This document shows positions 3,039 to 14,861 of a stretch of DNA of 35,985 nucleotides, one piece after another. A program made the position numbers and the translations under genes. The DNA lies in NCBI GenBank assembly GCA_944385585.1, contig CALWXU010000197.1, forward strand, positions 1 to 35,985, written 5' to 3'. Position 1 is the first letter of the stretch, and each line of letters begins with the position of its first letter. The notes under the pieces were generated by a model. It saw only the letters and a program-made list of their open reading frames with translations, ran no database searches and was not told where the DNA came from. Source of the stretch: an uncultured Flavonifractor sp. (lineage in GTDB: Bacteria; Bacillota; Clostridia; Oscillospirales; Oscillospiraceae).

Positions 3039-3947
3039 TTAAGCCCTATGCCCCTGATTCTCCGATCCGCGGATCTCTTCATGATAAAAGTAATTGATAA
3101 TCGTCGGTTTTCCCGGCTTGCTGCGCCCATCAGGCAGGTGGTTGTCCAGATAGGGAAAATCGCTTGCCTCTGCAATCCGGCGAACCTCCTGCTCTAATGC
3201 CATCCAGTAGGATCGATCCCGCTTTTTATAAATAGCATCATACAAAGAGACTAACTCCGGATGCTTTCGGCTGATGTAGGCGAGAATTTCTGCTTTGAAC
3301 GAACCACGCAGATTAAGATTTTCCAGCCAGATAAAATCACATTGATTCCTGACCCGCTCCACAATGGCGGGCACGTCTGTAATGCCTGGAAAAATCGGGG
3401 CTGTAAAGCATACTGTTCGGATACCTGCCTTGTAGACCCTTTGCATGGCGGCCAGCCGTCGCGCAATGCTGACGGCGTTGTCCATATCGCTTTTGAAGTC
3501 CTCGTCCAGTGTGTTAATGGACCAGGATACCGTCACATCCGGCATTTGGGTCAACAGATCCAGATCCCGGAGTACTAGGTCGGACTTGGTACAAATCATC
3601 AGCTTGGCGCCGCTGGTTTTCAGCTGTTCCAGCAGGCTCCGGGTACGTCCGTAAACCTCCTCTTGGGGAAGGTAGCCGTCGGTCACCGAGCCGATCACCA
3701 CACGCTGCCCCCGATATTTTTGCGGGTTTTTGATATCCGGCCAGTGCTTCACATCCAGGAAAGCCCCCCATGGTTCACTGTGACCGGTAAACCGTTTCAT
3801 GAAAGAAGCATAGCAGTATTTGCAGTTATGGGTACAGCCTATATACGGGTTCACTGAATAGCCGCCCACGGGCAGCGTGGATTTGGTCATAACATTCTTT
3901 GTTTTAATGTCCCGGATTAGTACTCCATTTTCTTTTATTTCTTCCAT
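3039..3947 (-). CDS. radical SAM protein, mobile-pair B type (SPL-like)
   Basis: A 302-residue radical SAM enzyme. The [4Fe-4S]-binding triad is C38-x3-C42-x2-C45 (CTHNCKYC), within a sequence resembling the spore photoproduct lyase/Rv2578c-type branch. It matches what is annotated as 'radical SAM mobile pair protein B', a partner always found beside protein A on transferable segments. The substrate of the pair is not known. The start at 3947 gives a GGAGG ribosome site; the gene overlaps the end of protein A by 13 bp, so translation is probably coupled. Confidence 0.8.
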   Translation of the reverse strand: MEEIKENGVLIRDIKTKNVMTKSTLPVGGYSVNPYIGCTHNCKYCYASFMKRFTGHSEPWGAFLDVKHWPDIKNPQKYRGQRVVIGSVTDGYLPQEEVYGRTRSLLEQLKTSGAKLMICTKSDLVLRDLDLLTQMPDVTVSWSINTLDEDFKSDMDNAVSIARRLAAMQRVYKAGIRTVCFTAPIFPGITDVPAIVERVRNQCDFIWLENLNLRGSFKAEILAYISRKHPELVSLYDAIYKKRDRSYWMALEQEVRRIAEASDFPYLDNHLPDGRSKPGKPTIINYFYHEEIRGSENQGHRA

Positions 3948-4624
3948 GCAGCCTGTTCCTCCAATACACACTGGAAAGCCGGAGGCAGTTCCTGCACCAT
4001 CTGCGCCCCGCCCATGATGGGGAGCAGATCCTCTTTCATGAATACGGGGATACCCAGCGCGTGGGCCTGATAGGTTAACTCCCACACCCATTCCGGTCTG
4101 GATACGGCTTTACCCTTTCTGCGTCCGGTCTCGGTACCGATGACCACCCACTCAATGCCGGAGAGGTCCACTTCACCAATATCATCAAACATGGGCTCGA
4201 AGGTCACATGAAAGTGTCCCCCGTGGATGTTTTCCCGCAGAGCCTGGATGCGGTCCTTCTCTTTACGGGATGTAACGGTCACCCCAAACCAGGCATTGTC
4301 CAGCGGTGTGGAGAAGCGAATCACTTCCGGCCGTTTGGTCAGGAAGAGGTACTGGTGCTGCGGGTTCTGGGCCATTTTAGCAAATACTTCGTCCCGCCAC
4401 TCCGGTTTCCAGAAGGCAAAATCGCTCATCCCGGTCAGGAGAAAATTGTGGGGGCGCGGATTGTCCATCAGCCGCAGTTTGTTCGGGAAAAATTCCGGCT
4501 TCTCAAAATCGTCGATCATATGGAACCGCCGGACATTGTTCCTGGCGTAGCAGTAGCTGCACCCAATGGGACAGCCGATGACCAGGTTCCTATTCTGGAT
4601 CAAATCCTTAATACAGACCGCCAT
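3935..4624 (-). CDS. radical SAM protein, mobile-pair A type
   Basis: A 229-residue radical SAM/phage Gp37-like protein with the cluster motif C18-x3-C22-x2-C25 (CPIGCSYC) unusually close to the N-terminus. It corresponds to 'radical SAM mobile pair protein A'. The ATG at 4624 has an AAAGGAGG ribosome site; the longer open frame upstream has none. It lies 34 bp behind the (broken) flavin reductase gene on the same strand and overlaps protein B downstream. A flavin reductase in front could once have supplied electrons to reduce the iron-sulphur clusters; that is inference. Confidence 0.8.
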   Translation of the reverse strand: MAVCIKDLIQNRNLVIGCPIGCSYCYARNNVRRFHMIDDFEKPEFFPNKLRLMDNPRPHNFLLTGMSDFAFWKPEWRDEVFAKMAQNPQHQYLFLTKRPEVIRFSTPLDNAWFGVTVTSRKEKDRIQALRENIHGGHFHVTFEPMFDDIGEVDLSGIEWVVIGTETGRRKGKAVSRPEWVWELTYQAHALGIPVFMKEDLLPIMGGAQMVQELPPAFQCVLEEQAAWKK

Positions 4625-4658
4625 CGGCCCCGCCTCCTTTTCTGGTATTGCGAAAGAA

Positions 4659-5170
4659 TCAGCCCTCCACGGCGGGCGCAACCTTGCCGAAGCCATTCCA
4701 GGCATACAGGCCCTTCTTGCTCTCATCGCCCAGGAATTTGCCTACCTGGCAGATATGCAGGATATGGTCGCCCACTTCCACCGACTGCTGCAGGGTGGCC
4801 ACCATCGCCAGCTTGGTGTCCGCCGGGATCTGGATGTCGCTGCCCTCCACGGCCACCATCTCGATGTGGTTGGCGGCCACCTTGTCGGTCTTGGCTCCGG
4901 TGGAAGCCCCGCAGGCCATGACGGCCTGTGCCAGGCTCTCGCCCGGAACGGTGACGATCACCTTGCCGGTCTCCCGTACCTGCCTGCCGGTGTGGGACTG
5001 CTTGCTGGTGGCGAATCCGATCATCGGCGGATTGGAGGAGAGGTAGGACACAAAGCAGATGGGTGCCAGGTTCGTGGTGCCGTCCTCTTTTTTGGAGCAG
5101 ATCAGCGTCAGAGGATTGGGGGAGGTCAGAACATCAGAACAGTGGCCTCTATAATGTTCAGTTCTTTCAT
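4659..5170 (-). pseudogene. flavin reductase family protein, frameshifted by 8-bp duplication
   Basis: The downstream open part (130 residues from 5051) is a DIM6/NTAB-type flavin reductase with the family's N-terminal strands missing. The missing part exists upstream: from the ATG at 5170, with a good AAAGG site, the frame reads M-K-E-L-N-I-I-E-A-T-V-L and then hits a stop. The cause is a tandem duplication of TGTTCTGA (minus strand; 5126-5133 and 5134-5141). Removing one copy restores T-V-L-T-S-P-N-P-L-T and one continuous frame of about 167 residues, the usual length for the family. Either the gene is dead or the repeat is a slippage switch. It is controlled by the promoter at 5233-5260. 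Confidence 0.85.
5126..5141. repeat. 8-bp tandem duplication causing frameshift
   Basis: TCAGAACA is present twice in direct tandem (5126-5133, 5134-5141). It shifts the flavin reductase frame by +2 and creates an early stop. Confidence 0.9.
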
Positions 5171-5232
5171 GTCATTCAGACCTTTCCAAGAAATTTCAGT
5201 CGTTGACTGCATGGTCAACCAGTGATATATTT

Positions 5233-5263
5233 ATTATACTTGATTAAAATCTTCAATCAAGTA
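5233..5263 (-). promoter_or_regulatory. flavin reductase promoter overlapped by HxlR operator
   Basis: On the minus strand TTGATT (5255-5260), a 16-bp spacer and TATAAT (5233-5238) make a strong promoter. A perfect inverted repeat TACTTGATT-N9-AATCAAGTA (5237-5263) covers both boxes. It sits between the divergent HxlR regulator and the reductase, so binding there would block the reductase promoter directly. HxlR-family proteins typically act in this arrangement. Confidence 0.7.
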
Positions 5264-5326
5264 CGCAAATCGTTTATATCTGGTATTAAAAAAGATACTG
5301 CTGGTAGAATGGAGTAAACTATCATC

Positions 5327-5680
5327 ATGACCTATGAGGAATTTGCGGAGAAAGTGAGCAGCGTGATTCTGACGGAGCGTGGAAACTGCCCGGTCACGCC
5401 GGTGATCCAGATGCTGCAGGGGAAATGGAAACTGCAAATTCTCTACGAGCTGTGCATCAAATCCCCCATGCGGTTTGGGGAGCTGAAGAAGATGCTGAAA
5501 CCCATTACCAATGCCGCCCTGACCAATGCGCTGAAGGAGCTGGAGACCAACGAGCTGATCCAGCGCATCCAGTACAACGAAATGCCGCTGCGGGTGGAAT
5601 ACTCCCTGACGGAGAAGGGGCGGGATCTGCTGCCTGTCTTCTACGCCATCTCCCAGTGGGGGTTGAAGTACATTCCATAA
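5327..5680 (+). CDS. HxlR-family winged-helix transcriptional regulator
   Basis: A 117-residue regulator with the HxlR core: GKWKLQILYEL, the recognition segment around residues 60-75 (ITNAALTNALKELETNEL) and the wing ending in VEYSLTEKG. Proteins of this family often sense quinones, aldehydes or oxidants and control a divergent redox enzyme; the divergent gene here is a flavin reductase, which fits. A cysteine near the N-terminus (in GNCPV) is in the position used for redox sensing in several HxlR/QorR-type members. The ribosome site is GGAG at 12 bp, a little far, so translation may be weak. Confidence 0.88.
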   Translation: MTYEEFAEKVSSVILTERGNCPVTPVIQMLQGKWKLQILYELCIKSPMRFGELKKMLKPITNAALTNALKELETNELIQRIQYNEMPLRVEYSLTEKGRDLLPVFYAISQWGLKYIP

Positions 5681-5723
5681 AAGCACTGTCAGAACACTTT
5701 TGAACTCCACCGATCGTCCAAGA

Positions 5724-5767
5724 GGGGGCTGAGATCCTATTACCTATTAGGATCTCAGCCCCCTTTT
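5724..5767 (+). terminator. intrinsic terminator after HxlR gene, probably bidirectional
   Basis: A perfect 16-bp stem (5724-5739 with 5748-5763) with an 8-nt loop, followed by TTTT. It lies between two convergent genes and ends directly at the stop codon of the small gene at 5769. Confidence 0.9.
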
Positions 5768-5768
5768 G

Positions 5769-6086
5769 TCAGGAGATTTCCTCTGCCTCCAGCAGGAAGA
5801 CGACCGGACGCACGCCATCCGGGCAGGCAAACACGCCGATGGAATCATCGTTCAGCCAGGTACCGGATGGCTGGAGCAGCCCGCCTTCGGATAACTGGCG
5901 CACCCACGGTTCAAGGTTTTGCCAGGCCACGCCGCACATCCCCTCCGGCGGGTTGATGCCATCGCTGTAGAGCACCTGCCCTTTCTGGTGGAAGGGACAC
6001 ATTCCAAGCTCAGGAATCGCATACCGATCCGCCAAGTCCTGATAGTATTCCGTGCGAAGCACGGTAATCTTTACTTTTTTCTGCAT
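5769..6086 (-). CDS. small TIGR04076-like protein
   Basis: 105 residues beginning MQKKVKITVL, with the pattern ELGMCPFHQKGQ then PEGMCGVAW, which resembles the small uncharacterised proteins annotated as the TIGR04076 family. No signal peptide or membrane segment is visible. Two cysteines (in GMCPF and GMCGVAW) could bind a cofactor or a metal. The start at 6086 has an AGGAGGAG ribosome site; an upstream in-frame ATG has none. It lies 34 bp after the patatin gene on the same strand, so probably belongs to the Rrf2-patatin transcript. Function unknown. Confidence 0.7.
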   Translation of the reverse strand: MQKKVKITVLRTEYYQDLADRYAIPELGMCPFHQKGQVLYSDGINPPEGMCGVAWQNLEPWVRQLSEGGLLQPSGTWLNDDSIGVFACPDGVRPVVFLLEAEEIS

Positions 6087-6120
6087 ATTGCTCTCCTCCT
6101 TTTTTGCCATTATGTAACCA

Positions 6121-6987
6121 TCAAGCGGATAAGAAGTTCTGCAGGTTTTCTTTTTGGGCGGCAAAATCCTGCAGGCCCAGGTCATATAGCGCCCGCTCTG
6201 CCTCCTCTTTCATGGAGTAGGTCCCCACATGGAGCGGCTCGCTGGGCGCCAGGACAAAGGCCGTTCCCGCCTGTTCCAGCGCGAATACCTCCTGGAAATT
6301 TTGATTATATACGGTGTGCCGGCGGTTCAGCGCCTCTACGATCCTGGGATACCTGCGGCAGGCCAGCCGGTATAGTGGCCGCATCCCCTGGGGTTTCTTC
6401 ACATAGTCCCGATTTTTAGACAGGATCACCACCAGCCGGTCACACCCCTTTTCCAGCGCCCGGCGGACGGGGATGGCGTCGGTCAAGCCGCCGTCAAAAT
6501 AGGGCACCCCATTCAGTTCCACCGGATGGCAGACAGCGGGGATGGCGCTGGATGCCATGATCAGGCGGTAATCGTCCTGCTTCATGGCCTCCTTTCCAAA
6601 GTATTCCGGCCTGCCCGTCAGCGCGTTGGTGACCACCGCCTCATATTCTGTGGGATTGTTCAGAAATGCCGGAAAGTCCAGCGGGTCTTTTCCGTCCGCC
6701 CGCGTCAGATCACCATAGATATGCTGGATGCCGAACAGATCGCCGGTTTTCAGCAGGCTCCTCAGCCCAAAGTATTCCGGGTCATGGATGTGCTCGGTAA
6801 AAAAGCGCAGGTTCCGCCCCCGCTGCCCGGCCAGATAGGACACCAGATTTCCGGAGCCCGCCGAGACACCGATGCAATAGTCGAAGGTAATTCCCTCATC
6901 CAGAAAACGGTCCAGGATCGCGGCGTTATAGGCGCACTTCATGCCGCCGCCCTCCACCACCAGCCCGTATTTTATTTCTGTCCGCAT
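6121..6987 (-). CDS. patatin-like phospholipase
   Basis: A 288-residue soluble acyl hydrolase of the patatin fold. The oxyanion loop GGGMK (13-17), the nucleophile elbow G40-V-S42-A-G44 and the D165-G-G catalytic aspartate are all present, so the Ser/Asp dyad is intact. The closest familiar group is the YjjU-like bacterial patatins of about 280-300 residues. The gene overlaps the end of the Rrf2 regulator by 16 bp and is thus translationally coupled to it. Substrate unknown; membrane phospholipid is the usual target. Its fixed link with the divergent sirtuins suggests a shared stress response. Confidence 0.88.
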   Translation of the reverse strand: MRTEIKYGLVVEGGGMKCAYNAAILDRFLDEGITFDYCIGVSAGSGNLVSYLAGQRGRNLRFFTEHIHDPEYFGLRSLLKTGDLFGIQHIYGDLTRADGKDPLDFPAFLNNPTEYEAVVTNALTGRPEYFGKEAMKQDDYRLIMASSAIPAVCHPVELNGVPYFDGGLTDAIPVRRALEKGCDRLVVILSKNRDYVKKPQGMRPLYRLACRRYPRIVEALNRRHTVYNQNFQEVFALEQAGTAFVLAPSEPLHVGTYSMKEEAERALYDLGLQDFAAQKENLQNFLSA

Positions 6988-7451
6988 AAAGCAGCATCCC
7001 CTTTCCCGTTCGTTTGTGCTGTCTGGTTTTGCTCCAATTTCCGGTCATACCGGGCAAGGATCTCCGCCAGCGTAATCTCCCGCATCCTGGCTTCGGCGCT
7101 CTCCTGCACCTCCCGGTAGCAGTCCGCCAGCACCAGCTGGATGTTCACTCCCACGCCGCAGGCCGGGTTGGTGTGGGTGTCCTGATGCAGGATCGGCTTG
7201 TCGCCCTCCACCGCGCGGTAGGCATCCAGCAGCGTGATCTGGGCGGGGTCACGGGTCAGGGCGGGCCGGGGATGCCCTTTCACGCTGGTGAGCAGCCCGC
7301 CCTTGCGCAGAGCCGACATCAGTTGGCGAACATAGGCAGGATTTGTCTGCACGCTCTCTGCAATCCGTTCGCTGGTCAGGTTGGCTCCCGGATGCAGGGC
7401 CAGGAAGGCCAGAATGTGGACCGCGTCGCTCAATCTGGTTGGATATTTCAT
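6972..7451 (-). CDS. Rrf2-family transcriptional regulator
   Basis: 159 residues with the Rrf2 N-terminal winged helix (YPTRLSDAVHILAFLALHP, then SERIAESVQTNPAYVRQLMSALRKGGLL). The cysteines that bind iron-sulphur clusters in IscR/NsrR are not in their usual spacing: only C118 (PACGVG) and C130 (ADCYREV) are seen in the central part, so it resembles the YwnA/CymR branch more than a classical Fe-S sensor. The start at 7451 has a GAGAGG ribosome site. It reads away from the sirtuin operon, and two copies of a dyad in the shared promoter region are its probable operators. Confidence 0.88.
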   Translation of the reverse strand: MKYPTRLSDAVHILAFLALHPGANLTSERIAESVQTNPAYVRQLMSALRKGGLLTSVKGHPRPALTRDPAQITLLDAYRAVEGDKPILHQDTHTNPACGVGVNIQLVLADCYREVQESAEARMREITLAEILARYDRKLEQNQTAQTNGKGDAALCGQK

Positions 7452-7472
7452 ACGGCTGTCCTCTCTTCTTGA

Positions 7473-7491
7473 TGTTAAAAATATTATAACA
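7473..7491. promoter_or_regulatory. operator 1, TGTTA-N9-TAACA
   Basis: Perfect inverted repeat. It contains the -10 box (TATAAT on the minus strand, 7483-7488) of the leftward Rrf2 promoter, whose -35 is a weak TTGCAT (7506-7511) at 17 bp, and it abuts the -35 of the rightward promoter. Confidence 0.65.
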
Positions 7492-7496
7492 GCATA

Positions 7497-7525
7497 TTGA
7501 CAGGGATGCAAGCGGGTGCTATGAT
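7497..7525 (+). promoter_or_regulatory. sigma-A promoter of the sirtuin operon
   Basis: TTGACA (7497-7502), 17-bp spacer, TATGAT (7520-7525). A near-consensus promoter placed exactly between the two TGTTA-N9-TAACA dyads. Confidence 0.85.
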
Positions 7526-7533
7526 AAACACGC

Positions 7534-7552
7534 TGTTAAAGAAAAAATAACA
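7534..7552. promoter_or_regulatory. operator 2, TGTTA-N9-TAACA
   Basis: A second perfect copy of the same dyad, 61 bp from the first, lying directly downstream of the expected start point of the sirtuin operon and just ahead of its ribosome site. Occupation would block the rightward promoter. Confidence 0.65.
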
Positions 7553-7574
7553 TCAGGCAGAGAGGTTGAACCCC

Positions 7575-8552
7575 ATGAGCTTTTACGAAGATTTGGTCAC
7601 TCAGACCCAGATGAACTATTCCCACTATTATACTGTCTACGCCTCCGGGCGCACGCCCTATGAACTGACGGACAAACCCGCCCTGCCCTACGACCAGCAG
7701 ATCGCCCGACTGGTTCAGGAAATCCGGGAAGCTGACTGCGTTGTCGTTGGCGGCGCCTCCGGCCTGTCGGCGGCAGGCGGCGGGGACTTTTATTATGAGG
7801 ACAATGCCTCCTATCGGAAATACTTCGGCAAGTATGCGGAGAAGTACCACTTCAATGGGGCTTTTGCGGGCATGATGCACCATTGGGCCACCCGGGAGGA
7901 GTTTTGGGGCTATCTGGCCACCTTCCTGCACACCACCCAGACCGCGCCCATCCGCCCGCCCTATCTGGATCTGGATGCGCTGCTGGAGGGCAAGGACTTC
8001 TTTGTGCTGACCACCAACCAGGACACCCAGTTTGTCAAACTCTACCCGGAGGAACAGGTGGCGGAGATCCAGGGGGATCACCGATTTTTCCAGTGTGCCG
8101 CCTGCTGCACCGACGACACCTGGGACGCAGTGGGACCGGTGGCTCAGATGGTACAGGCGATGGGCGAACACACTGCCATCCCCACCGAGCTGATCCCCCG
8201 CTGCCCCCACTGCGGCGGGGAGGCCTTCCCCTGGGTGCGGGGCTACGGCAACTTTTTGCAGGGCAAAAAGTACGAGGAACAATACGAGAAAGTTTCCCGC
8301 TATGTGCTGGCGCACAAGGACAGCAAGCTCCTGTTTCTGGAGCTGGGCGTGGGCCGCCTGACCCCCATGTTCATCCAGGAGCCGTTCTGGAACCTGACCC
8401 TCAGCTTCCCCCACGCCCGGTATATCGCCGTGAACAACCAGTATAACTTCCTGCCCAAGCAGTTGGAGGACAAGGGCATGGTCATCGTGGAGGACATTGC
8501 CAAGGTGCTGCGGGATGCCCGCGCGTCAGCCAGCCGGGGGCCGATGCAATGA
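7575..8552 (+). CDS. class M-like sirtuin (NAD-dependent ADP-ribosyltransferase/deacylase), copy 1
   Basis: A 325-residue Sir2-fold protein. Visible: NAD-binding G-G-A-S-G-L-S (59-65), T-T-N148-Q-D150, and a zinc ribbon with C174, C177, C178 and C210-x2-C213. The position of the catalytic histidine of ordinary sirtuins (the HG dipeptide) is Q166-G167. From memory, class M sirtuins (SirTM), which ADP-ribosylate rather than deacetylate, also have Gln there. An N-terminal extension of about 45 residues is not shared by the two paralogues downstream. The ATG at 7575 is preferred over the TTG at 7566 because AGAGG sits 9 bp before it. It is followed by the next paralogue with an ATGA overlap. Confidence 0.85.
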   Translation: MSFYEDLVTQTQMNYSHYYTVYASGRTPYELTDKPALPYDQQIARLVQEIREADCVVVGGASGLSAAGGGDFYYEDNASYRKYFGKYAEKYHFNGAFAGMMHHWATREEFWGYLATFLHTTQTAPIRPPYLDLDALLEGKDFFVLTTNQDTQFVKLYPEEQVAEIQGDHRFFQCAACCTDDTWDAVGPVAQMVQAMGEHTAIPTELIPRCPHCGGEAFPWVRGYGNFLQGKKYEEQYEKVSRYVLAHKDSKLLFLELGVGRLTPMFIQEPFWNLTLSFPHARYIAVNNQYNFLPKQLEDKGMVIVEDIAKVLRDARASASRGPMQ

Positions 8553-9424
8553 CAGAGCAGGTACTGGACCAGCTGGCCGAAAAAGTCGAGATTGCGGATG
8601 CAATCCTGATCGGCGCCGGATCCGGGCTGTCCAGTGCGGCGGGGTATAACCACTACCATTGGATGCCGGCCTTGGATTCGTATCTGAGAGAATTTCGGGA
8701 GTATTATCGGTTTGCCTCCCCCTTTGCTGATTTTTATTACTGTTATTCCTCGCCGGAACAACAGTGGGCGTACTATACCCGATATATTTACAGTATGTGG
8801 CACCTGCCCACCGGCCAGCCATATCTGGACCTGCGGGCTGTTCTGGCAGGCAAGGACTACTTTGTGCTGACCACCAATGTGGACGGGCAATGTGAGCGGG
8901 TATTCCCCCAGAAGCGATTATGCGCATACCAGGGAAACATGGGGTATTTCCAGTGCTCCCAACCCTGCCATGACCGTATTTACGAAAACCGGGATGCCGT
9001 TGAAGCCATGAACAGGGCGCTGGGGGATATGGTTCTGCCCTCTTCCCTGATCCCCCGCTGCCCGGAATGCGGGCGAATTATGGTTCCCTGGGTGCGGGAC
9101 GATACCTTCTTGGAGGGAACCGCCTGGCAGGAAGGCGTCGCACGTTACCAGGCGTTCCTTCGGCATTGGCTGATGGAGCGGACTGGAAAGAAACTCCTGC
9201 TGCTGGAGCTGGGCGTGGGCGAGATGACGCCCAGCATCATCAAGCTGCCTTTCTGGCAGCTGACCGCCCAAAACGAGCATGTATTTTACGCCTGCCTGAA
9301 TCAAAAGCCTTCCCACGCGCCGGAGCACCTCAAAGGGAAAAGCCTCTATTTGCAGGGGGATCTGGCGGAGATACTGTCCCGGCTGCGACAAAAATTGTGC
9401 AGAATCGGCTGTGTGCCGGAATAA
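8549..9424 (+). CDS. class M-like sirtuin, copy 2
   Basis: 291 residues, overlapping copy 1 by ATGA. NAD-binding G22-A-G-S-G-L-S-S-A-A-G32, T-T-N110-V-D112, Q128-G129 in place of His-Gly, and a complete four-cysteine zinc ribbon (C136, C140, C171, C174). The C-terminal half repeats the landmarks of copy 1: P-R-C-P-x-C-G, then L-E-L-G-V-G-x-x-T-P. Of the three copies this is the most canonical for class M. It probably uses NAD+ to modify a protein; no carrier protein, lipoate ligase or macrodomain gene, the usual class M partners, is found nearby. Confidence 0.85.
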   Translation: MTEQVLDQLAEKVEIADAILIGAGSGLSSAAGYNHYHWMPALDSYLREFREYYRFASPFADFYYCYSSPEQQWAYYTRYIYSMWHLPTGQPYLDLRAVLAGKDYFVLTTNVDGQCERVFPQKRLCAYQGNMGYFQCSQPCHDRIYENRDAVEAMNRALGDMVLPSSLIPRCPECGRIMVPWVRDDTFLEGTAWQEGVARYQAFLRHWLMERTGKKLLLLELGVGEMTPSIIKLPFWQLTAQNEHVFYACLNQKPSHAPEHLKGKSLYLQGDLAEILSRLRQKLCRIGCVPE

Positions 9425-9440
9425 GAGAAGGAGCGTTTGT

Positions 9441-10277
9441 ATGGAGAATCTGAAACCTGTGGCGGAAGCCATCCAGGCTGCCGATGCCATTTTGATCGGG
9501 GCCAGCAACGGCCTGTCCATCACCGAAGGCCTGCATCTCTTCGCCGATAACCAGGCTTTTGAGGAATTGTTCGGCGATCTCAAACGGAAATACGGCCTGC
9601 GGTGTATTCTGCACGGCATGGGGGCTCGCTGGCCGTCCGAGGAGGAAAAGTGGGGGTTCTGGTCCCGCCTGATCCACCACTACTGCGGCGAATACAAGCC
9701 CACGCCGGTCATGCAGGATCTGCGGGCCATCGTGGGCGAGAAGGATTATTTCATTGTGACCTCCAACGGGGAGTGCCACTTTGAGATGAGCGGCTTTGCC
9801 CCGGAAAAGATTTACGAGGTCGAGGGAAACTGGCTGACCATGCAGTGCGCCCGCCCCTGCCACGACACCCTATACCCCACGCTGGAACTGGCAGAGAAGA
9901 TGGCCGCCGCAGAGCGGGACGGGAAGATCCCGTCGGAACTCGTCCCCCGCTGCCCCAAGTGCGGCGGGCCGATGGAGGTTCACATGGAAGGCGGCCCCAA
10001 CTTCATCCCCGATACCGCAGCCCGGCAGCGGATGCAGGCTTTTCTACACCGGTATCACGGGAAGAAGCTGGTGGTGCTGGAGCTGGGCATCGGCTGGCGC
10101 AATCAGCTCATCAAGGCTCCGCTCATGCGTCTGGTGGCCCAGGAGCCCCATGCCGCCTATGTGACCATCAATCTGGGGGAAATCTATATCACTGATGACA
10201 TCAAAGCGCGGTCCTTTGGATTGGACGGCCCTTTAAGCGATATGTTGTCCGCGCTCCGGGAGGCGTGCGGCGTATGA
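9441..10277 (+). CDS. class M-like sirtuin, copy 3 (diverged active site)
   Basis: 278 residues with the same fold landmarks: G20-A-S-N-G-L-S26, a zinc ribbon C136, C140, C171, C174, and LELGIG near 213-218. The active site is altered further. T-S-N109-G-E111 replaces T-x-N-x-D, and the His/Gln position is E128-G129. Asn109, which contacts the nicotinamide ribose, is kept, so NAD binding is plausible while the chemistry may differ or be lost. It may be a regulatory partner of copies 1 and 2. AAGGAG lies 8 bp before the ATG; the HD gene downstream overlaps by ATGA. Confidence 0.82.
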   Translation: MENLKPVAEAIQAADAILIGASNGLSITEGLHLFADNQAFEELFGDLKRKYGLRCILHGMGARWPSEEEKWGFWSRLIHHYCGEYKPTPVMQDLRAIVGEKDYFIVTSNGECHFEMSGFAPEKIYEVEGNWLTMQCARPCHDTLYPTLELAEKMAAAERDGKIPSELVPRCPKCGGPMEVHMEGGPNFIPDTAARQRMQAFLHRYHGKKLVVLELGIGWRNQLIKAPLMRLVAQEPHAAYVTINLGEIYITDDIKARSFGLDGPLSDMLSALREACGV

Positions 10278-10537
10278 AACTTCCAGGGGCTGTAAAACGT
10301 GACTATGACCGCTGGAGCCGCTTCCTGGAGCAACAAATTGACTTTTCCCTGAAAGACAGTGAGAAGCACACCAAGGCCCACTGTGCCCGGGTGCTGCTGT
10401 ATGCACTTTTGATCGCGGAAAAAATGGGCTTATCACAAGAACTGCGGGAAGTGCTCGGCGCTGCGGCGGTCTTTCACGACTCCCGCCGTCAGGATGACTG
10501 GCTGGATGTAGGACATGGACAGCGGGCGGCAGACTAG
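10274..10537 (+). pseudogene. HD-domain phosphohydrolase, truncated
   Basis: 87 residues that cover the start of an HD hydrolase: the first histidine in HTKAHCARV (about 39-43) and the H-D pair in FHDSRRQDDWLDVGHGQRAAD. The frame stops right after RAAD, where family members continue with Y-Y-R-E and another hundred residues. In a shifted frame the text continues R-E-M-R-A, so a small deletion at about 10534 followed by loss of the rest seems likely. The ATG overlaps the stop of sirtuin 3, which makes it the fourth gene of the operon. HD proteins of this type remove phosphate from nucleotides; here activity is doubtful. Confidence 0.65.
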
Positions 10538-10565
10538 GGAAATGCGCGCACTTGCTTTTCTGCCG

Positions 10566-11060
10566 TTAAACAATATTCATGTCATCATCATGCAGCATAA
10601 ACATACAGACCGCAAGCAGTATCATTGCACATTCTATGGATATCATATCGGAAAAAATCAAGATCTCCTTTCTGAGCCGCAAGGTGTGTATCATTGTGCA
10701 GACCTCTCTTTTTTGTATGTAAATATGAAAGGTGCGGTCTGTATGTTGAACAATGGTGACTGGGCCATTGTGAGAATCCAACTTGATCCGCTGTGCCAGG
10801 GGCGGTTTCACGTGGCTGTTGCAAGGTGGTTTTTCCCCCTCCACAGCATAATTAAAGGGATATGGCCCAAAGTTCTCCCTGTTCTTTTCAAGGGAAATCG
10901 TTTCTCCGCTTTGATGGACGCATCCTATTTGGACCCCGTCAGGAGTGCAAATTTCAAGTGATGCCGCAGGCAAAAAGCTTCTTTTCACAAATCCAACGCA
11001 GACGCCTTCTGAGTTGAAAACCACGTATTTATTGACATGGGTTTTAACATATAATTGCAT
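10566..11060 (-). CDS. hypothetical protein, tubby/LURP-one-like
   Basis: 164 residues, no signal peptide. The repeating short strands with paired small and aromatic residues (YVVFNSEGVCVGFVK; LEICTPDGVQIGCVHQSG; VTIVQHTDRTFHIYIQKREV) resemble the tubby C-terminal/LURP-one-related barrel seen in bacterial YxjI-like proteins. The fold call is by eye only. A hydrophobic C-terminal stretch (about residues 142-157) could anchor it. AGGAGG precedes the ATG and only 2 bp separate it from the chromate transporter gene upstream, so it is the third gene of that operon. It ends 28 bp from the convergent HD fragment. Confidence 0.6.
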   Translation of the reverse strand: MQLYVKTHVNKYVVFNSEGVCVGFVKRSFLPAASLEICTPDGVQIGCVHQSGETISLEKNRENFGPYPFNYAVEGEKPPCNSHVKPPLAQRIKLDSHNGPVTIVQHTDRTFHIYIQKREVCTMIHTLRLRKEILIFSDMISIECAMILLAVCMFMLHDDDMNIV

Positions 11061-11062
11061 AG

Positions 11063-11623
11063 TTATCCTCCTATTACACTTACCGCTAATTTCATAATGC
11101 CAGCTAAAAGCATAACTAGGATGGGGTTTGTTTTTGCTTTTTGAAGCAGGATAAAGCAGATGGCAAATATAAGCACCATACTCCAATTTGTATTCGCAAT
11201 GGAAATTGCTCCACTGCCCCAAAACACCGAAATGAGAATGGAAATGCCAGCTGATGCGATCATAGCCACTACAGCGGGACGCAGGGTTGTCAAAATCTCC
11301 TGCAGCACACTCATATTTTGATACTTTAAGTACAATTTTGCGATGAGCGTGACAATGATACATGACGGAAGGACACATCCGATCGTTGCAATGAGTGCAC
11401 CTGGAATACCGGCAATTCTTATTCCGACAAAAGTTGCAGAGTTGATGGCAATTGGGCCCGGCGTCATTTGGGATATGGTGATCAAATCTGTAAATTCTGA
11501 CATGCTGAGCCAGCCGTGAGTCTCAACAATCTGATGTTGGATCAGCGGCATCGCTGCATAGCCGCCTCCAAAACTGAACAGGCCGATTTGTAGGAAGCTG
11601 AAAAACAGTTGAAGATAAATCAT
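11063..11623 (-). CDS. short chromate transporter (CHR) subunit
   Basis: 186 residues, about six hydrophobic segments, carrying the CHR signature FSFGGGYAAMPLIQ and the SQMTPGPIAINSATFVG loop. Single-domain CHR proteins come as pairs with opposite membrane topology, as with B. subtilis YwrA/YwrB, and export chromate or a related oxyanion. This is the second of the pair; its ATG overlaps the stop of the first by 4 bp. The natural substrate in a gut anaerobe is uncertain. Probably controlled by the divergent LysR regulator. Confidence 0.9.
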   Translation of the reverse strand: MIYLQLFFSFLQIGLFSFGGGYAAMPLIQHQIVETHGWLSMSEFTDLITISQMTPGPIAINSATFVGIRIAGIPGALIATIGCVLPSCIIVTLIAKLYLKYQNMSVLQEILTTLRPAVVAMIASAGISILISVFWGSGAISIANTNWSMVLIFAICFILLQKAKTNPILVMLLAGIMKLAVSVIGG

Positions 11624-12189
11624 GCTGCGACCCCTCTTTTCCGATGGATAAATGTTTGAATGATCCCGATCAAAATGCAGATCACGACAACGTAAATTAC
11701 ATTTACATTCAAAAAGCAGGTCGCGGCAAAGGCCGCTGCCATGACGCCGATGGATGACAATTTCCTCCCATGGATCACCTCTGCTGCCATTTCATAAACC
11801 ACAGATGCGATAACTGCGCCTACCCCTGCCTGCATTCCCTCAAGAACCTGGCTTACAATGAAATTATCGCGGAATGCGTGGTAGAAGACGGAGATCAGGG
11901 AGATGATGACAAAGGGTGGAATAACGGTGGCAACAATAGCCGTAAGCGCACCCAAGAGGCCTGCGAGCTTATATCCCACTACGATGGCGCCATTTACAGC
12001 AATTGCTCCCGGCGCTGACTGAGCGATCGCTATTAAATCAAGCATTTCATCTTCTTCGATCCAATGGCATTCATCTACAAACTTTTTTTTCATCAGCGTA
12101 ACAATGACGTATCCGCCGCCAAATGTAAAGGCGCTTAGATACAGTGTGGAGATAAATACTTTCAGCAGTACGTCTTTTTTTCTTTTCAT
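11620..12189 (-). CDS. short chromate transporter (CHR) subunit
   Basis: 189 residues with the CHR signature FTFGGGYVIVTLMKKKFVDE and the AQSAPGAIAVNGAIVVGYK loop, again about six membrane segments. First gene of the operon; partner of the protein encoded immediately downstream, with which it should form the working dimer. A CCTCC ribosome-site complement lies just outside the ATG. The divergent promoter region toward the LysR gene holds a long AT-rich dyad. Confidence 0.9.
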   Translation of the reverse strand: MKRKKDVLLKVFISTLYLSAFTFGGGYVIVTLMKKKFVDECHWIEEDEMLDLIAIAQSAPGAIAVNGAIVVGYKLAGLLGALTAIVATVIPPFVIISLISVFYHAFRDNFIVSQVLEGMQAGVGAVIASVVYEMAAEVIHGRKLSSIGVMAAAFAATCFLNVNVIYVVVICILIGIIQTFIHRKRGVAA

Positions 12190-12231
12190 ACTTTGCCCCT
12201 CCTTGGAGCATAGTATATCTTACGTTGACTT

Positions 12232-12258
12232 ATAATAAAAATAGTATTATTTTATTAT
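12232..12258. promoter_or_regulatory. AT-rich dyad in the chr/LysR divergent promoter
   Basis: ATAATAAAA (12232-12240), 9-bp spacer, TTTTATTAT (12250-12258): a perfect 9-bp inverted repeat midway between the divergent LysR and chromate genes. It is the expected place for the LysR protein to act on both. A TTGACT -35-like box precedes it at 12225-12230. AT richness makes chance pairing easier, so confidence is moderate. Confidence 0.45.
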
Positions 12259-12299
12259 TGTGATATTGTTTTTATTATAAAGCGGGTGAGGTATAAGGT

Positions 12300-13202
12300 A
12301 TGACGCTTCGTCACATGAAGATATTTGTAGCTGTATTCCAGCACAGCAACATTACAAGAGCAGCCGCAGAGCTGCATCTTGCGCAGCCATCAGTCAGCCT
12401 TGCCATCAAAGAACTGGAAGAGTATTACGGCATACAGCTTTTCGCAAGAATTGGAAGGCGTATTTCTCCCACCCCATGCGGCAGGGAATTCTATAGCTAT
12501 GCGCTTCATATCGTTACTTTGTTTGAAGATATGGAGACCAAAATCAAAAACTGGGGTGCAGTAGGATCCATCCGCATCGGAACTAGTATCACGATCGGTA
12601 CGCACATCCTGCCGTTTTTGCTGAATCAATATCAATTGCAATATCCCTCTTTAAAGATACAGGCAGTGGTTGGAAAATCCAGTGATATAGAGCAAAAACT
12701 TTTAGACAACTCGCTTGACATCGGCTTAATTGAGACGAATCCTGAGCATATCGATCTTTGTGCGACTCCCTTTATGCAGGATAAGATGTGCGCAATCGTG
12801 GCAAGGGATCATCCTCTGGCCTCCCAAAAAAGCGTGAGCCTTTCCCAATTGGTTGAGTATCCCTTTTTGGTAAGGGAAAAGGGCAGCGCAGGCAGGGATC
12901 TTCTGGACGCCTGCTGTTCCCTCCAACGGTTGTCCTTGCAGATCCTGCTGGAGAGCTCCAGCACACAAGCCATTGTAAAAGCTGTCGCAAACGGGCTCGG
13001 AGTTGCAATATTGCCATACCTGCTTGTGGAAAGAGATGTCCTGGAAAATGTTGTGGAACCGCTGCGGTTATGCCAGCCATTGCAGCGCGATTTGAATATT
13101 GTTTATCACAAAAGCAAGTTTCTCTCACCGAATTTGAAAACCTTTATCGCGGTGTGCCAACGTTATGGGAGAGACCATGAGATTGCATTAGACCTTGTTT
13201 GA
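12300..13202 (+). CDS. LysR-family regulator
   Basis: 300 residues with the N-terminal LysR helix-turn-helix (HMKIFVAVFQHSNITRAAAELHLAQPSVSLAIKELEEYYG) and a periplasmic-binding-like effector domain beginning near residue 90 (GSIRIGTSITIGTHILPFLL). Divergent to the chromate-type transporter pair, which it most likely controls. The effector is unknown. GTGAGG lies 8 bp before the ATG. Confidence 0.92.
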   Translation: MTLRHMKIFVAVFQHSNITRAAAELHLAQPSVSLAIKELEEYYGIQLFARIGRRISPTPCGREFYSYALHIVTLFEDMETKIKNWGAVGSIRIGTSITIGTHILPFLLNQYQLQYPSLKIQAVVGKSSDIEQKLLDNSLDIGLIETNPEHIDLCATPFMQDKMCAIVARDHPLASQKSVSLSQLVEYPFLVREKGSAGRDLLDACCSLQRLSLQILLESSSTQAIVKAVANGLGVAILPYLLVERDVLENVVEPLRLCQPLQRDLNIVYHKSKFLSPNLKTFIAVCQRYGRDHEIALDLV

Positions 13203-13360
13203 AAAAGAAAGGCTGCATAGAAAGACAGGATATTCAGGAAGGCACGCCCATCGTGTATCCTCGTCCATCTGCCAAACGAATCAAGGATTTGATCCAGAAG
13301 GAGGCAGGGAAAACCATTCTGCTTTTGTCTTACAAGCATGACGATCCGAAGGTGGAGTAA
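13203..13360 (+). pseudogene. C-terminal remnant of an unknown gene
   Basis: Directly after the LysR stop an open frame without ATG runs to the TAA at 13358. Its end reads GKTILLLSYKHDDPKVE and looks like genuine coding sequence (charged/hydrophobic alternation, no low-complexity). No family was recognised and no start with a ribosome site exists, so it is taken as a fragment left by a rearrangement. Confidence 0.3.
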
Positions 13361-13423
13361 GTGAAAATGGATTCCTTATCCCTTCACAATGTGGTATGAT
13401 TTTGAGGAAGGGAGGAACCCGAT

Positions 13424-13819
13424 ATGCCAGAAACCCATCTGCCCCATAATCATGGTCAGGCATTAGAGGGCACATTTGACCACATGCCCCGCACCGAGGA
13501 TTTCCAAACCGTTGCCGATGTTTTCAAGCTGCTCAGTGATGGGAGCCGGATTCGCATCTTCTGGCTGCTGTGTCATTGCGAAGAATGCGTCATCAACCTC
13601 TCTGCGATGGTACAGATGAGCAGCCCCGCAGTATCTCACCATTTGAAACAGTTGAAGGCAGGCGGTTTGATCGTGAGCCGCCGTGAAGGAAAGGAAGTCT
13701 ACTACAAGGCGGCCGATACAGAAGCAGCACAGCTGCTCCATCATACGATTGAAAAATTGGTGAAGATCATCTGCCCTACGGAAGATTCCAGAGGGGAGGT
13801 CTTGCATGAAACAGGATGA
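13424..13819 (+). CDS. ArsR-family regulator with Cys-rich sensing helix
   Basis: 131 residues. The helix before the recognition helix carries C50-H-C52-E-E-C55, with a further C117 near the end and a histidine-rich N-terminus (H5, H8, H10), all suited to binding a soft metal. The recognition helix is SSPAVSHHLKQL (66-77). Unlike the ArsR at the left of the window it lacks the alpha-5 D-x-H-x10-H-x2-E zinc site, so a thiol-based sensor of the CadC/CmtR kind is more likely. GGGAGG precedes the ATG and an extended -10 (TGGTATGAT) lies upstream. It overlaps the AraC gene by 14 bp. Confidence 0.85.
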   Translation: MPETHLPHNHGQALEGTFDHMPRTEDFQTVADVFKLLSDGSRIRIFWLLCHCEECVINLSAMVQMSSPAVSHHLKQLKAGGLIVSRREGKEVYYKAADTEAAQLLHHTIEKLVKIICPTEDSRGEVLHETG

Positions 13820-14861
13820 ATTGTCTTATACTGAGCGCATATTAAAAGATGTCCCTTCTGGTGAAGTATCCATCGTGCGCCATTTTGATTCGGCGCAAGG
13901 CCGAACCCTCTTGACAGATCAATTTTTGGCCAAAACTTCTGGAAAAGGGAAGGTAGAAACGTATGCCCTTTTCCCTGGGATAGAAGCGTCTTATCATGTT
14001 TTTCTGGCCCCTCAAATAGCATTCCATCATGACGCTTCTGACTCTATGCTGGAAATCTTTCACTGCAGGAGCGGACGGATCGGCTGGAATATGCGCGGCG
14101 GCACCGCTGTTTATCTGGGAGCCGGTGATATGACTGTCCACAGCACGGCCTGCTGCGCAGATTCCGCAATGATGTTTCCACTGGGATATACGGCGGGGAT
14201 CTCTTTCTCGGTCGACCTGCCGCACCTGAATGAAAATCCTCCTGAGATTTTACGGGAAGCGGGCATAGACGGAAAACGGCTACAGGACTTATTCTGCTCC
14301 GGGAAACCGGTCGCGACCCCGGCTTGTGCCGAGTTGGACTGTATCTTTGCCCCGCTGTATTGTGCAGCCCCGGCACAGCGCGGGCCCTATCTGAAGTTAA
14401 AGATTCAAGAGCTTTTGCTGTTCCTCTACAACTTCCAGCCTGAACGCAGGGAGTTGACACAGTATCACTCCCAGCAGACGGAATTGATTAAAGAGATCCA
14501 TCGCCTGCTTACAGAGCATTTAGACCAGCGCTATACCATTGAAGATCTTTCCAAAAGGTTCCTCATTAACAGCTCAATGCTAAAAGAGGTGTTCAAGGCC
14601 GTATATGGAGCGCCCATCGCCACCTACATGAAGGAATACCGAATCCGGCAGGCAATGAAGCTGCTTCGGGATACAAATGACAGCATTGCCTCCATTGCGG
14701 CGCGGGTGGGGTACGAATCACAAGGGAAATTTACACAGGCTTTCAAGGACGTTGCAATGGTGCTCCCATCAGAATATCGTAGAATTCAGTATTGCAAAGA
14801 TAGGGCACAATATTCTGAACAAGGCGCTGAACAACCGGATGGTAGCCCCCATACGATCTAG
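13806..14861 (+). CDS. AraC-family regulator, tail encoded by IS remnant
   Basis: 351 residues: an N-terminal sensing domain with many histidines and cysteines, then a double helix-turn-helix (about 225-325) with IEDLSKRFLINSSMLKEVFKAVYG and the second motif SIASIAARVGYESQGKFTQAFKD. After SEYRRI the last two dozen residues come from a different frame of the decayed IS1182-type transposase, which also supplies the stop codon. The DNA-binding part is complete, so the protein may still work. It is translationally coupled to the ArsR gene. Such ArsR-AraC pairs usually precede a transporter; none follows here, because the IS remnant took its place. Confidence 0.82.
   Translation: MKQDELSYTERILKDVPSGEVSIVRHFDSAQGRTLLTDQFLAKTSGKGKVETYALFPGIEASYHVFLAPQIAFHHDASDSMLEIFHCRSGRIGWNMRGGTAVYLGAGDMTVHSTACCADSAMMFPLGYTAGISFSVDLPHLNENPPEILREAGIDGKRLQDLFCSGKPVATPACAELDCIFAPLYCAAPAQRGPYLKLKIQELLLFLYNFQPERRELTQYHSQQTELIKEIHRLLTEHLDQRYTIEDLSKRFLINSSMLKEVFKAVYGAPIATYMKEYRIRQAMKLLRDTNDSIASIAARVGYESQGKFTQAFKDVAMVLPSEYRRIQYCKDRAQYSEQGAEQPDGSPHTI

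Follow-up and report, generated by a model that had tools for sequence, protein, structure and literature searches.

A recurring pair of SirTM-like sirtuins, one with a rebuilt active site, suggests a two-part NAD-using stress module

In a 35,985-nucleotide stretch of DNA from an uncultured Flavonifractor sp. (GenBank assembly GCA_944385585.1, contig CALWXU010000197.1, forward-strand positions 1 to 35,985; hereafter the window), three sirtuin genes, SirA, SirB and SirC, lie head to tail on the plus strand. The list of open reading frames places genes for an Rrf2 regulator and a patatin-like phospholipase divergent from them and a short HD reading frame downstream. Our analyses showed that the near-universal part of this arrangement is the SirA-SirC pair only, with SirB, HD and patatin as optional members. 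Strong sequence evidence supports a conserved pair, mostly beside an Rrf2 gene and shared operator-like sites, and the recurrence of this pair suggests an undescribed two-part NAD-using stress module. We found no description of the pair in the open-access literature. The genome to which the source contig (C197 in our sample) belongs has 2,416,861 bases, is split into 198 contigs and is 81% complete. An initial annotation of the window had recognized the three paralogous Sir2-fold genes; the rebuilt SirC, the pairing with SirA, the operator-like sites and the link to nicotinamide salvage had gone unnoticed.

Conservation and active sites of the SirA-SirC pair

Loci for comparison came from two kinds of search. 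A single SirB scan of genome contigs yielded 19 loci. In addition, whole-genome samples were searched with SirA (300 genomes of the window's family and 397 of family f52, by inference Lachnospiraceae) and with SirC (394 genomes of the order, 391 of the class and 397 of f52). From these we took 29 SirC/SirA-selected loci in 28 genomes: 20 found with SirC in f52, seven by strong SirA matches in the window's family and two with SirC in the order. Thirty regions had been gathered for this set, of which L131, a canonical SirTM with macrodomain, was left out, and G182 was not added beside L033. The comparison covers 48 loci, with full 4-kb flanks in 32 and flanks shortened by contig ends in 16.

SirA and SirC were found on the same strand and less than 2 kb apart in all 29 SirC/SirA-selected loci and in 17 of the 19 SirB-selected ones; the exceptions were L047, where SirA sits on the other strand 2.9 kb off, and L049, which contains two SirB-like genes only. 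Among the 397 f52 genomes, 20 contained SirC, 22 SirA and 19 both at the cut-offs used, and the class-wide sample of 391 added one further SirC genome. The initial annotation had treated the three sirtuins as a unit, which holds for SirA and SirC, with SirB as an optional member: SirB or part of it accompanied seven of the 29 SirC/SirA-selected loci, and in L050 and L116-L119 only 21-41% of its length was matched. Rrf2 within 4 kb, HD and patatin were counted in 23, 4 and 6 of these 29 loci and in 16, 8 and 4 of the 19 SirB-selected loci, respectively. A gene for a C_GCAxxG_C_C redox protein is located between SirC and SirA in two loci (L039:3059-3454 and L118:8306-8701).

In the window, SirA (7575-8552, plus strand) is listed as an open reading frame from a TTG at 7566, and the ATG at 7575 has AGAGAGG upstream. 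SirB (8549-9424, plus strand) follows with an ATGA overlap. SirC (9441-10277, plus strand) is listed at 9411-10277; orthologues begin at the ATG equivalent to 9441, and given this start SirB and SirC are separated by 16 bases. The gene order thus agreed with the initial annotation. So did the catalytic His position, which the alignment showed to be Gln in SirA, Gln in SirB and Glu in SirC, and the zinc ribbon, whose four cysteines were invariant in 25 of 25 aligned paralogues, the three window proteins included.

Pfam detected Rrf2 and patatin clearly among the window proteins and the sirtuins barely. With phmmer, the best relative of all three sirtuins in the Protein Data Bank (PDB) was 5a3a, the SirTM of Streptococcus pyogenes (SirA 1.1e-39, SirB 4.3e-43, SirC 6.8e-37), followed by 8rsn. 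The AlphaFold2 model of SirC (mean predicted local distance difference test score, pLDDT, 93.6) likewise matched 5a3a best, with a template modelling (TM) score of 0.87, as expected for a sirtuin fold. The kinship with class M sirtuins that had been proposed from the sequence is supported. SirC, as aligned, is without the partner Arg and the TP motif, besides carrying Glu, and is thus not simply a third class M enzyme.

Residue counts were made on rows of at least 240 amino acids, near-copies included, sorted by best BLAST query. SirA, in the window with Asn, Asp, Gln, Arg and GVGxxTP intact, kept Asn, Gln, Arg and GVGxxTP in all 46 rows and is the predicted catalytic subunit. SirB, an optional third SirTM-like sirtuin with a Gln-type active site, kept Gln in 23, Asn in 24 and Arg in 21 of 24 rows, together with TP. 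SirC, the near-obligate partner of SirA, has been rebuilt in a fixed way: Glu replaced Gln in 48 of 48 rows and Asn replaced the Thr of TP (Asn-Gln for Thr-Pro in the window), again in 48 of 48; the Asp two residues after the catalytic Asn was Glu in 47 of 48, Arg was kept in none, and the equivalent of Asn118 was retained in all. At the [NT] position of GVGx[NT]TP, canonical SirTM proteins had Asn (47/47), SirA Met (36) or Leu (10), SirB Met (24/24), and SirC Arg (47) or Lys (1). In the S. pyogenes SirTM, mutating Asn118, Gln137 or Arg192 greatly lowers ADP-ribosylation and changing Gln to His abolishes activity (PMC4518038). Since these mutants lose most activity and SirC combines Glu for Gln with the loss of Arg, SirC probably does not carry out the SirTM reaction by the known route. 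Nevertheless, the gene is under purifying selection and not decaying, as judged from low ratios of nonsynonymous to synonymous substitution rates (0.074 and 0.063 with two relatives); SirA and SirB gave 0.099 and 0.103 with one pair each.

Phylogenetic trees were quick ones, with branch support from the Shimodaira-Hasegawa-like approximate likelihood ratio test (SH-aLRT) only and near-copies removed (129 of 165 rows in the main tree). SirA, SirC and canonical SirTM each fell on one side of a branch (SH-aLRT 97, 100 and 99). SirB was not quite one clade, as one SirB-like gene each of L047 and L049 grouped with SirA. A second tree included the first 300 residues of plasmid proteins and 18 canonical SirTM rows; in it all eight plasmid sirtuins grouped with SirA or SirC (SH-aLRT 94 and 100), with Gln kept in SirA and Glu in SirC.

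Rrf2 regulator and operator-like sites

An Rrf2 gene occurs within 4 kb in 39 of the 48 loci and is directly divergent in 36. In the window it occupies 6972-7451 on the minus strand (listed open reading frame 6972-7511; protein start MKYPTRLSD; Pfam Rrf2 3.4e-30). Pattern searches of the gap between Rrf2 and SirA revealed two 19-bp TGTTA-N9-TAACA palindromes, at 7473-7491 and 7534-7552, which flank a predicted sigma-70 type SirA promoter on the plus strand (TTGACA-N17-TATGAT, 7497-7525; 11 of 12 matches, 0.3 expected in shuffles). Three exact TGTTA-N9-TAACA sites exist in the whole genome, two of them in this gap, and the reversed control pattern occurred once. For relatives, we collected 37 gap sequences and dropped 14 near-copies, the window among them. 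With the pattern TGTWA-N9-TWACA, at least one site was present in 19 of the remaining 23 gaps, which held 32 sites compared with 0.05 expected from mononucleotide shuffling; in all 37 gaps, 33 had a site and 20 had two. The weight of these operator-like sites hence derives from their recurrence in relatives and not from the window alone.

Iron-sulfur regulators of the Rrf2 family, of the IscR or NsrR type, carry three clustered cysteines. The window Rrf2 is without this pattern and has one conserved Cys column only, which was invariant in 38 of 38 aligned rows (near-copies and the second Rrf2 genes of L118 and L119 included). We infer that the regulator may respond to a thiol signal. A TetR gene was present near five of the nine loci without Rrf2 (L047, L111, L112, L113 and L114) and may take the place of Rrf2 there.

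Neighbouring genes and nicotinamide salvage

The patatin-like phospholipase gene, with a DUF6363 domain, is located at 6121-6987 on the minus strand and overlaps the end of Rrf2 (Pfam patatin 2.6e-24). Both genes are divergent from the sirtuins, as had been read from the sequence. A conserved link of the sirtuins to their neighbours, which had been suggested as well, was seen in our survey for Rrf2 with its shared sites; patatin was found within 4 kb in only 10 of 48 loci and HD in only 12.

The supposed HD protein of the window turned out to be a 5' fragment of 90 codons (10274-10537, plus strand; Pfam HD 0.0018, below the curated cut-off), compared with 181 codons for the copies in L033 and L037. 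Synteny with L037 extends to window position 10536 and resumes at 13231, so that 573 bases of L037 are opposed to 2694 window bases. The stretch 10537-13230 contains two chromate-transporter genes and a LysR regulator, which stand in place of the remainder of HD and the beginning of the following region in L037. Because synteny breaks off within the HD gene, HD is probably not a working part in the window genome. Similar chromate-transporter and LysR genes lie about 1.5 kb past the HD gene of L122. A sequence search of the PDB gave no relative of HD (best E 0.39). The structure predicted for it (pLDDT 90.7) resembles HD hydrolases generally, with no Foldseek match at E under 0.001. HD as a core part of the module was rejected, since it occurs anywhere in only five of 30 pair-bearing genomes, the broken window copy included.

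A plasmid search with HD as query led to Mesobacillus foraminis and Paenibacillus sp. 37. Their plasmids show the order SirA, SirC, HD, nicotinate phosphoribosyltransferase and isochorismatase family (Pfam-scanned for the Mesobacillus set, where a small Spo0E-family frame precedes the isochorismatase-family gene). Identity was 45-49% for SirA and 46% for SirC, and an HxlR regulator is found about 3.1 kb (Mesobacillus) or 1.0 kb (Paenibacillus) upstream. On two Lactiplantibacillus plasmids, the SirA and SirC genes overlap by eight bases and SirC has a C-terminal cupin-like (Cupin_5) stretch (L148:5992-7323 and L149:5989-7308). The L148 plasmid, in which SirC adjoins a TetR gene, is typed as mobilizable and the L149 plasmid as conjugative. 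Putative salvage genes were also seen in five loci of our set: L041 encodes a fusion of HD to an isochorismatase domain, and both parts of it were matched in L046 and L050; in L047, SirC is followed by isochorismatase and phosphoribosyltransferase; L036 has phosphoribosyltransferase and NAD synthase after SirC, with a 34-residue isochorismatase match between them and SirC. From its neighbours, the isochorismatase-family protein would be a nicotinamidase; its match to the nicotinamidase model was below cut-off.

Farther off in the window, at 3039-4726, we observed the radical SAM mobile pair proteins A and B (TIGR04471 9.1e-123 and TIGR04470 6.1e-160), in the neighbourhood of genes for a flavin reductase-like protein and an HxlR regulator. 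Near the module, the B protein was found in 10 and the A protein in 9 of the 48 loci.

Proposed mode of action, alternatives and known systems

We put even chances on SirA and SirC being the two subunits of a SirTM-like ADP-ribosyltransferase that is induced by stress and in which SirC is the rebuilt partner. Judged from its residues, SirA would cleave NAD and move ADP-ribose onto a protein. SirC, keeping the fold and not the catalytic set, might bind SirA, NAD or ADP-ribose, or the target, and so switch or complete the activity. Where present, SirB could serve as a second Gln-type transferase. Rrf2 would repress the operon via the conserved palindromes around the promoter until thiol or electrophile stress releases it. 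Where salvage enzymes are encoded alongside, they could recycle nicotinamide from the reaction, and HD, in what is the weakest step of the scheme, probably hydrolyses a nucleotide product, for example free ADP-ribose.

Several observations weigh against this scheme. The pairing fits two separate enzymes of one pathway too. SirA is incomplete in two of the 29 loci (L102 and L108), and three of the 22 SirA genomes of f52 have no full SirC: G1334 contains a stretch from the C-terminus of SirC, SirA is truncated in G1188, and the SirA of G1178 lies close to a contig end, the 4.3 kb upstream of it being without SirC. Met or Leu occupies the site of the canonical SirTM Asn in SirA and SirB, and the Lactiplantibacillus SirA proteins are without the zinc cysteines. 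Four of the 23 dereplicated gaps have no operator-like site, and for the window by itself, two sites are no unusual chance outcome (6 of 100 shuffles with one mismatch permitted). Among the SirB-selected loci five of 19 had salvage genes, and among the SirC/SirA-selected loci none of 29; three of these five (L041, L046 and L050) look like one lineage, and the window's own module has none. The rarity of HD adds to these points.

Alternatively, the two proteins could be opposed, with SirA writing ADP-ribose and Glu-type SirC taking over from the missing macrodomain as reader or remover of the mark. No macrodomain, GcvH or lipoate ligase turned up among the scanned genes of the window (3039 to 14861), in line with the initial annotation; the search for lipoate ligase covered the window alone. 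None of the 48 loci showed a macrodomain within 4 kb, a count made with one query protein and the family recognized by eye. The nearest cases were L112, with a distinct SirTM-macrodomain pair beginning about 3.2 kb off (macrodomain 4.2 kb), and L103, at about 6 kb. In contrast, a Pfam macrodomain adjoins canonical SirTM in G182, G294 and G567. The invariant Glu and Asn of SirC are unlike decay, and three pair-bearing genomes of 97-99% completeness (G934, G1080 and G1238) gave no PF01661 match at all. However, the other 27 of 30 encode a macrodomain somewhere, and absence near the pair is therefore not absence in the cell. Moreover, we know of no ADP-ribose-removing sirtuin. We consider opposed roles unlikely. 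The same holds for the broader speculation that SirA and SirC are a self-contained switch for ADP-ribosylation without a macrodomain: the Gln-type protein would write, the Glu-type protein with changed chemistry would read or remove, and in some lineages genes of the same operon would recycle nicotinamide.

Somewhat less probable still is that the pair hydrolyses NAD when triggered by stress or phage and so depletes it, like SIR2 defence effectors. The sirtuin fold and the NAD resynthesis genes alongside some loci would suit it. So would the adjoining patatin, which weakly matches the PADLOC 'Effector' phospholipase model (E 3e-4), and the human FAM118 pair, which resembles antiphage sirtuins and lowers cellular NAD (PMC12700824). 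Against it, PADLOC gave no match up to E 1 for SirA, SirB or SirC, and scanning viral contigs with SirC or HD as the single query brought up no relative. Phage records yielded one SirTM-like match, the unannotated 5.5-kb record OR849908.1 labelled Staphylococcus phage (E 9e-28 to SirA, 2e-38 to SirC), which may be host sequence, and two further partial matches. Among the genes that recur beside the module are ones with redox and metal functions (FeoB, P-type ATPase, C_GCAxxG and CGGC proteins, FMN reductase). The initial interpretation is partly supported overall, and phage defence has little support.

We also regard it as improbable that the proteins are conventional class M sirtuins whose target is a lipoylated GcvH-like protein from another part of the genome. 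Fold, the Gln of SirA and SirB, and a strong GcvH match in the window's genome agree with this. However, SirA and SirC form clades separate from canonical SirTM, and GcvH matches at E 0.001 or better occurred in 13 of 30 pair-bearing genomes and strong ones (E under 1e-30) in only four, the window's included. Because strong GcvH is this rare, GcvH-L is probably not a general route for the SirA-SirC family. Least credible of all is that SirA, SirB and SirC are lysine deacylases with unusual residues, as public records annotate them and as NCBIfam deacylase-model matches far below cut-off might hint, given that His is replaced by Gln or Glu in all three and that class M sirtuins with Gln had no appreciable deacylase activity (PMC4518038).

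So far a single target of SirTM ADP-ribosylation is known, GcvH-L, and which proteins other SirTM systems act on, and to what end, is open (PMC11490716). A conserved pair with one member rebuilt in a fixed way, present in Clostridia and on plasmids of Bacilli, with shared operator-like sites and in places salvage genes, offers a compact system in which to seek a second SirTM target. It also lets one ask what Glu does at the catalytic position of a sirtuin.

Among known systems, regulators of the HypR and CymR type share the Rrf2 fold, and the window Rrf2 matches their models below cut-off; it differs by its single invariant Cys and the TGTWA-N9-TWACA sites. Human FAM118A and FAM118B, which are weak alone and process NAD markedly more actively in combination (PMC12700824), are two sirtuin paralogues like SirA and SirC and a precedent for paired sirtuins. 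They belong to another sirtuin subfamily (SIR2_2) and form filaments, and may serve as an analogy only. The macrodomain-fused SirTM Mfs1 (PDB 8rsn; PMC11490716) has the SirTM domain in common with our proteins and is fused to a macrodomain, which is absent here. Closest are the class M sirtuins (SirTM) of S. pyogenes and S. aureus (Rack et al. 2015, PMC4518038), which share with SirA and SirB the fold, Asn118, Gln137, Arg192, the cysteines and a non-His catalytic site. Because no macrodomain was found linked to the pair and the residue before TP is Met or Leu instead of Asn or Thr, we do not file the module under class M, although it may still work like class M. It is further set apart from SirTM by its Glu-type SirC partner and by Rrf2 with the shared operator-like sites.

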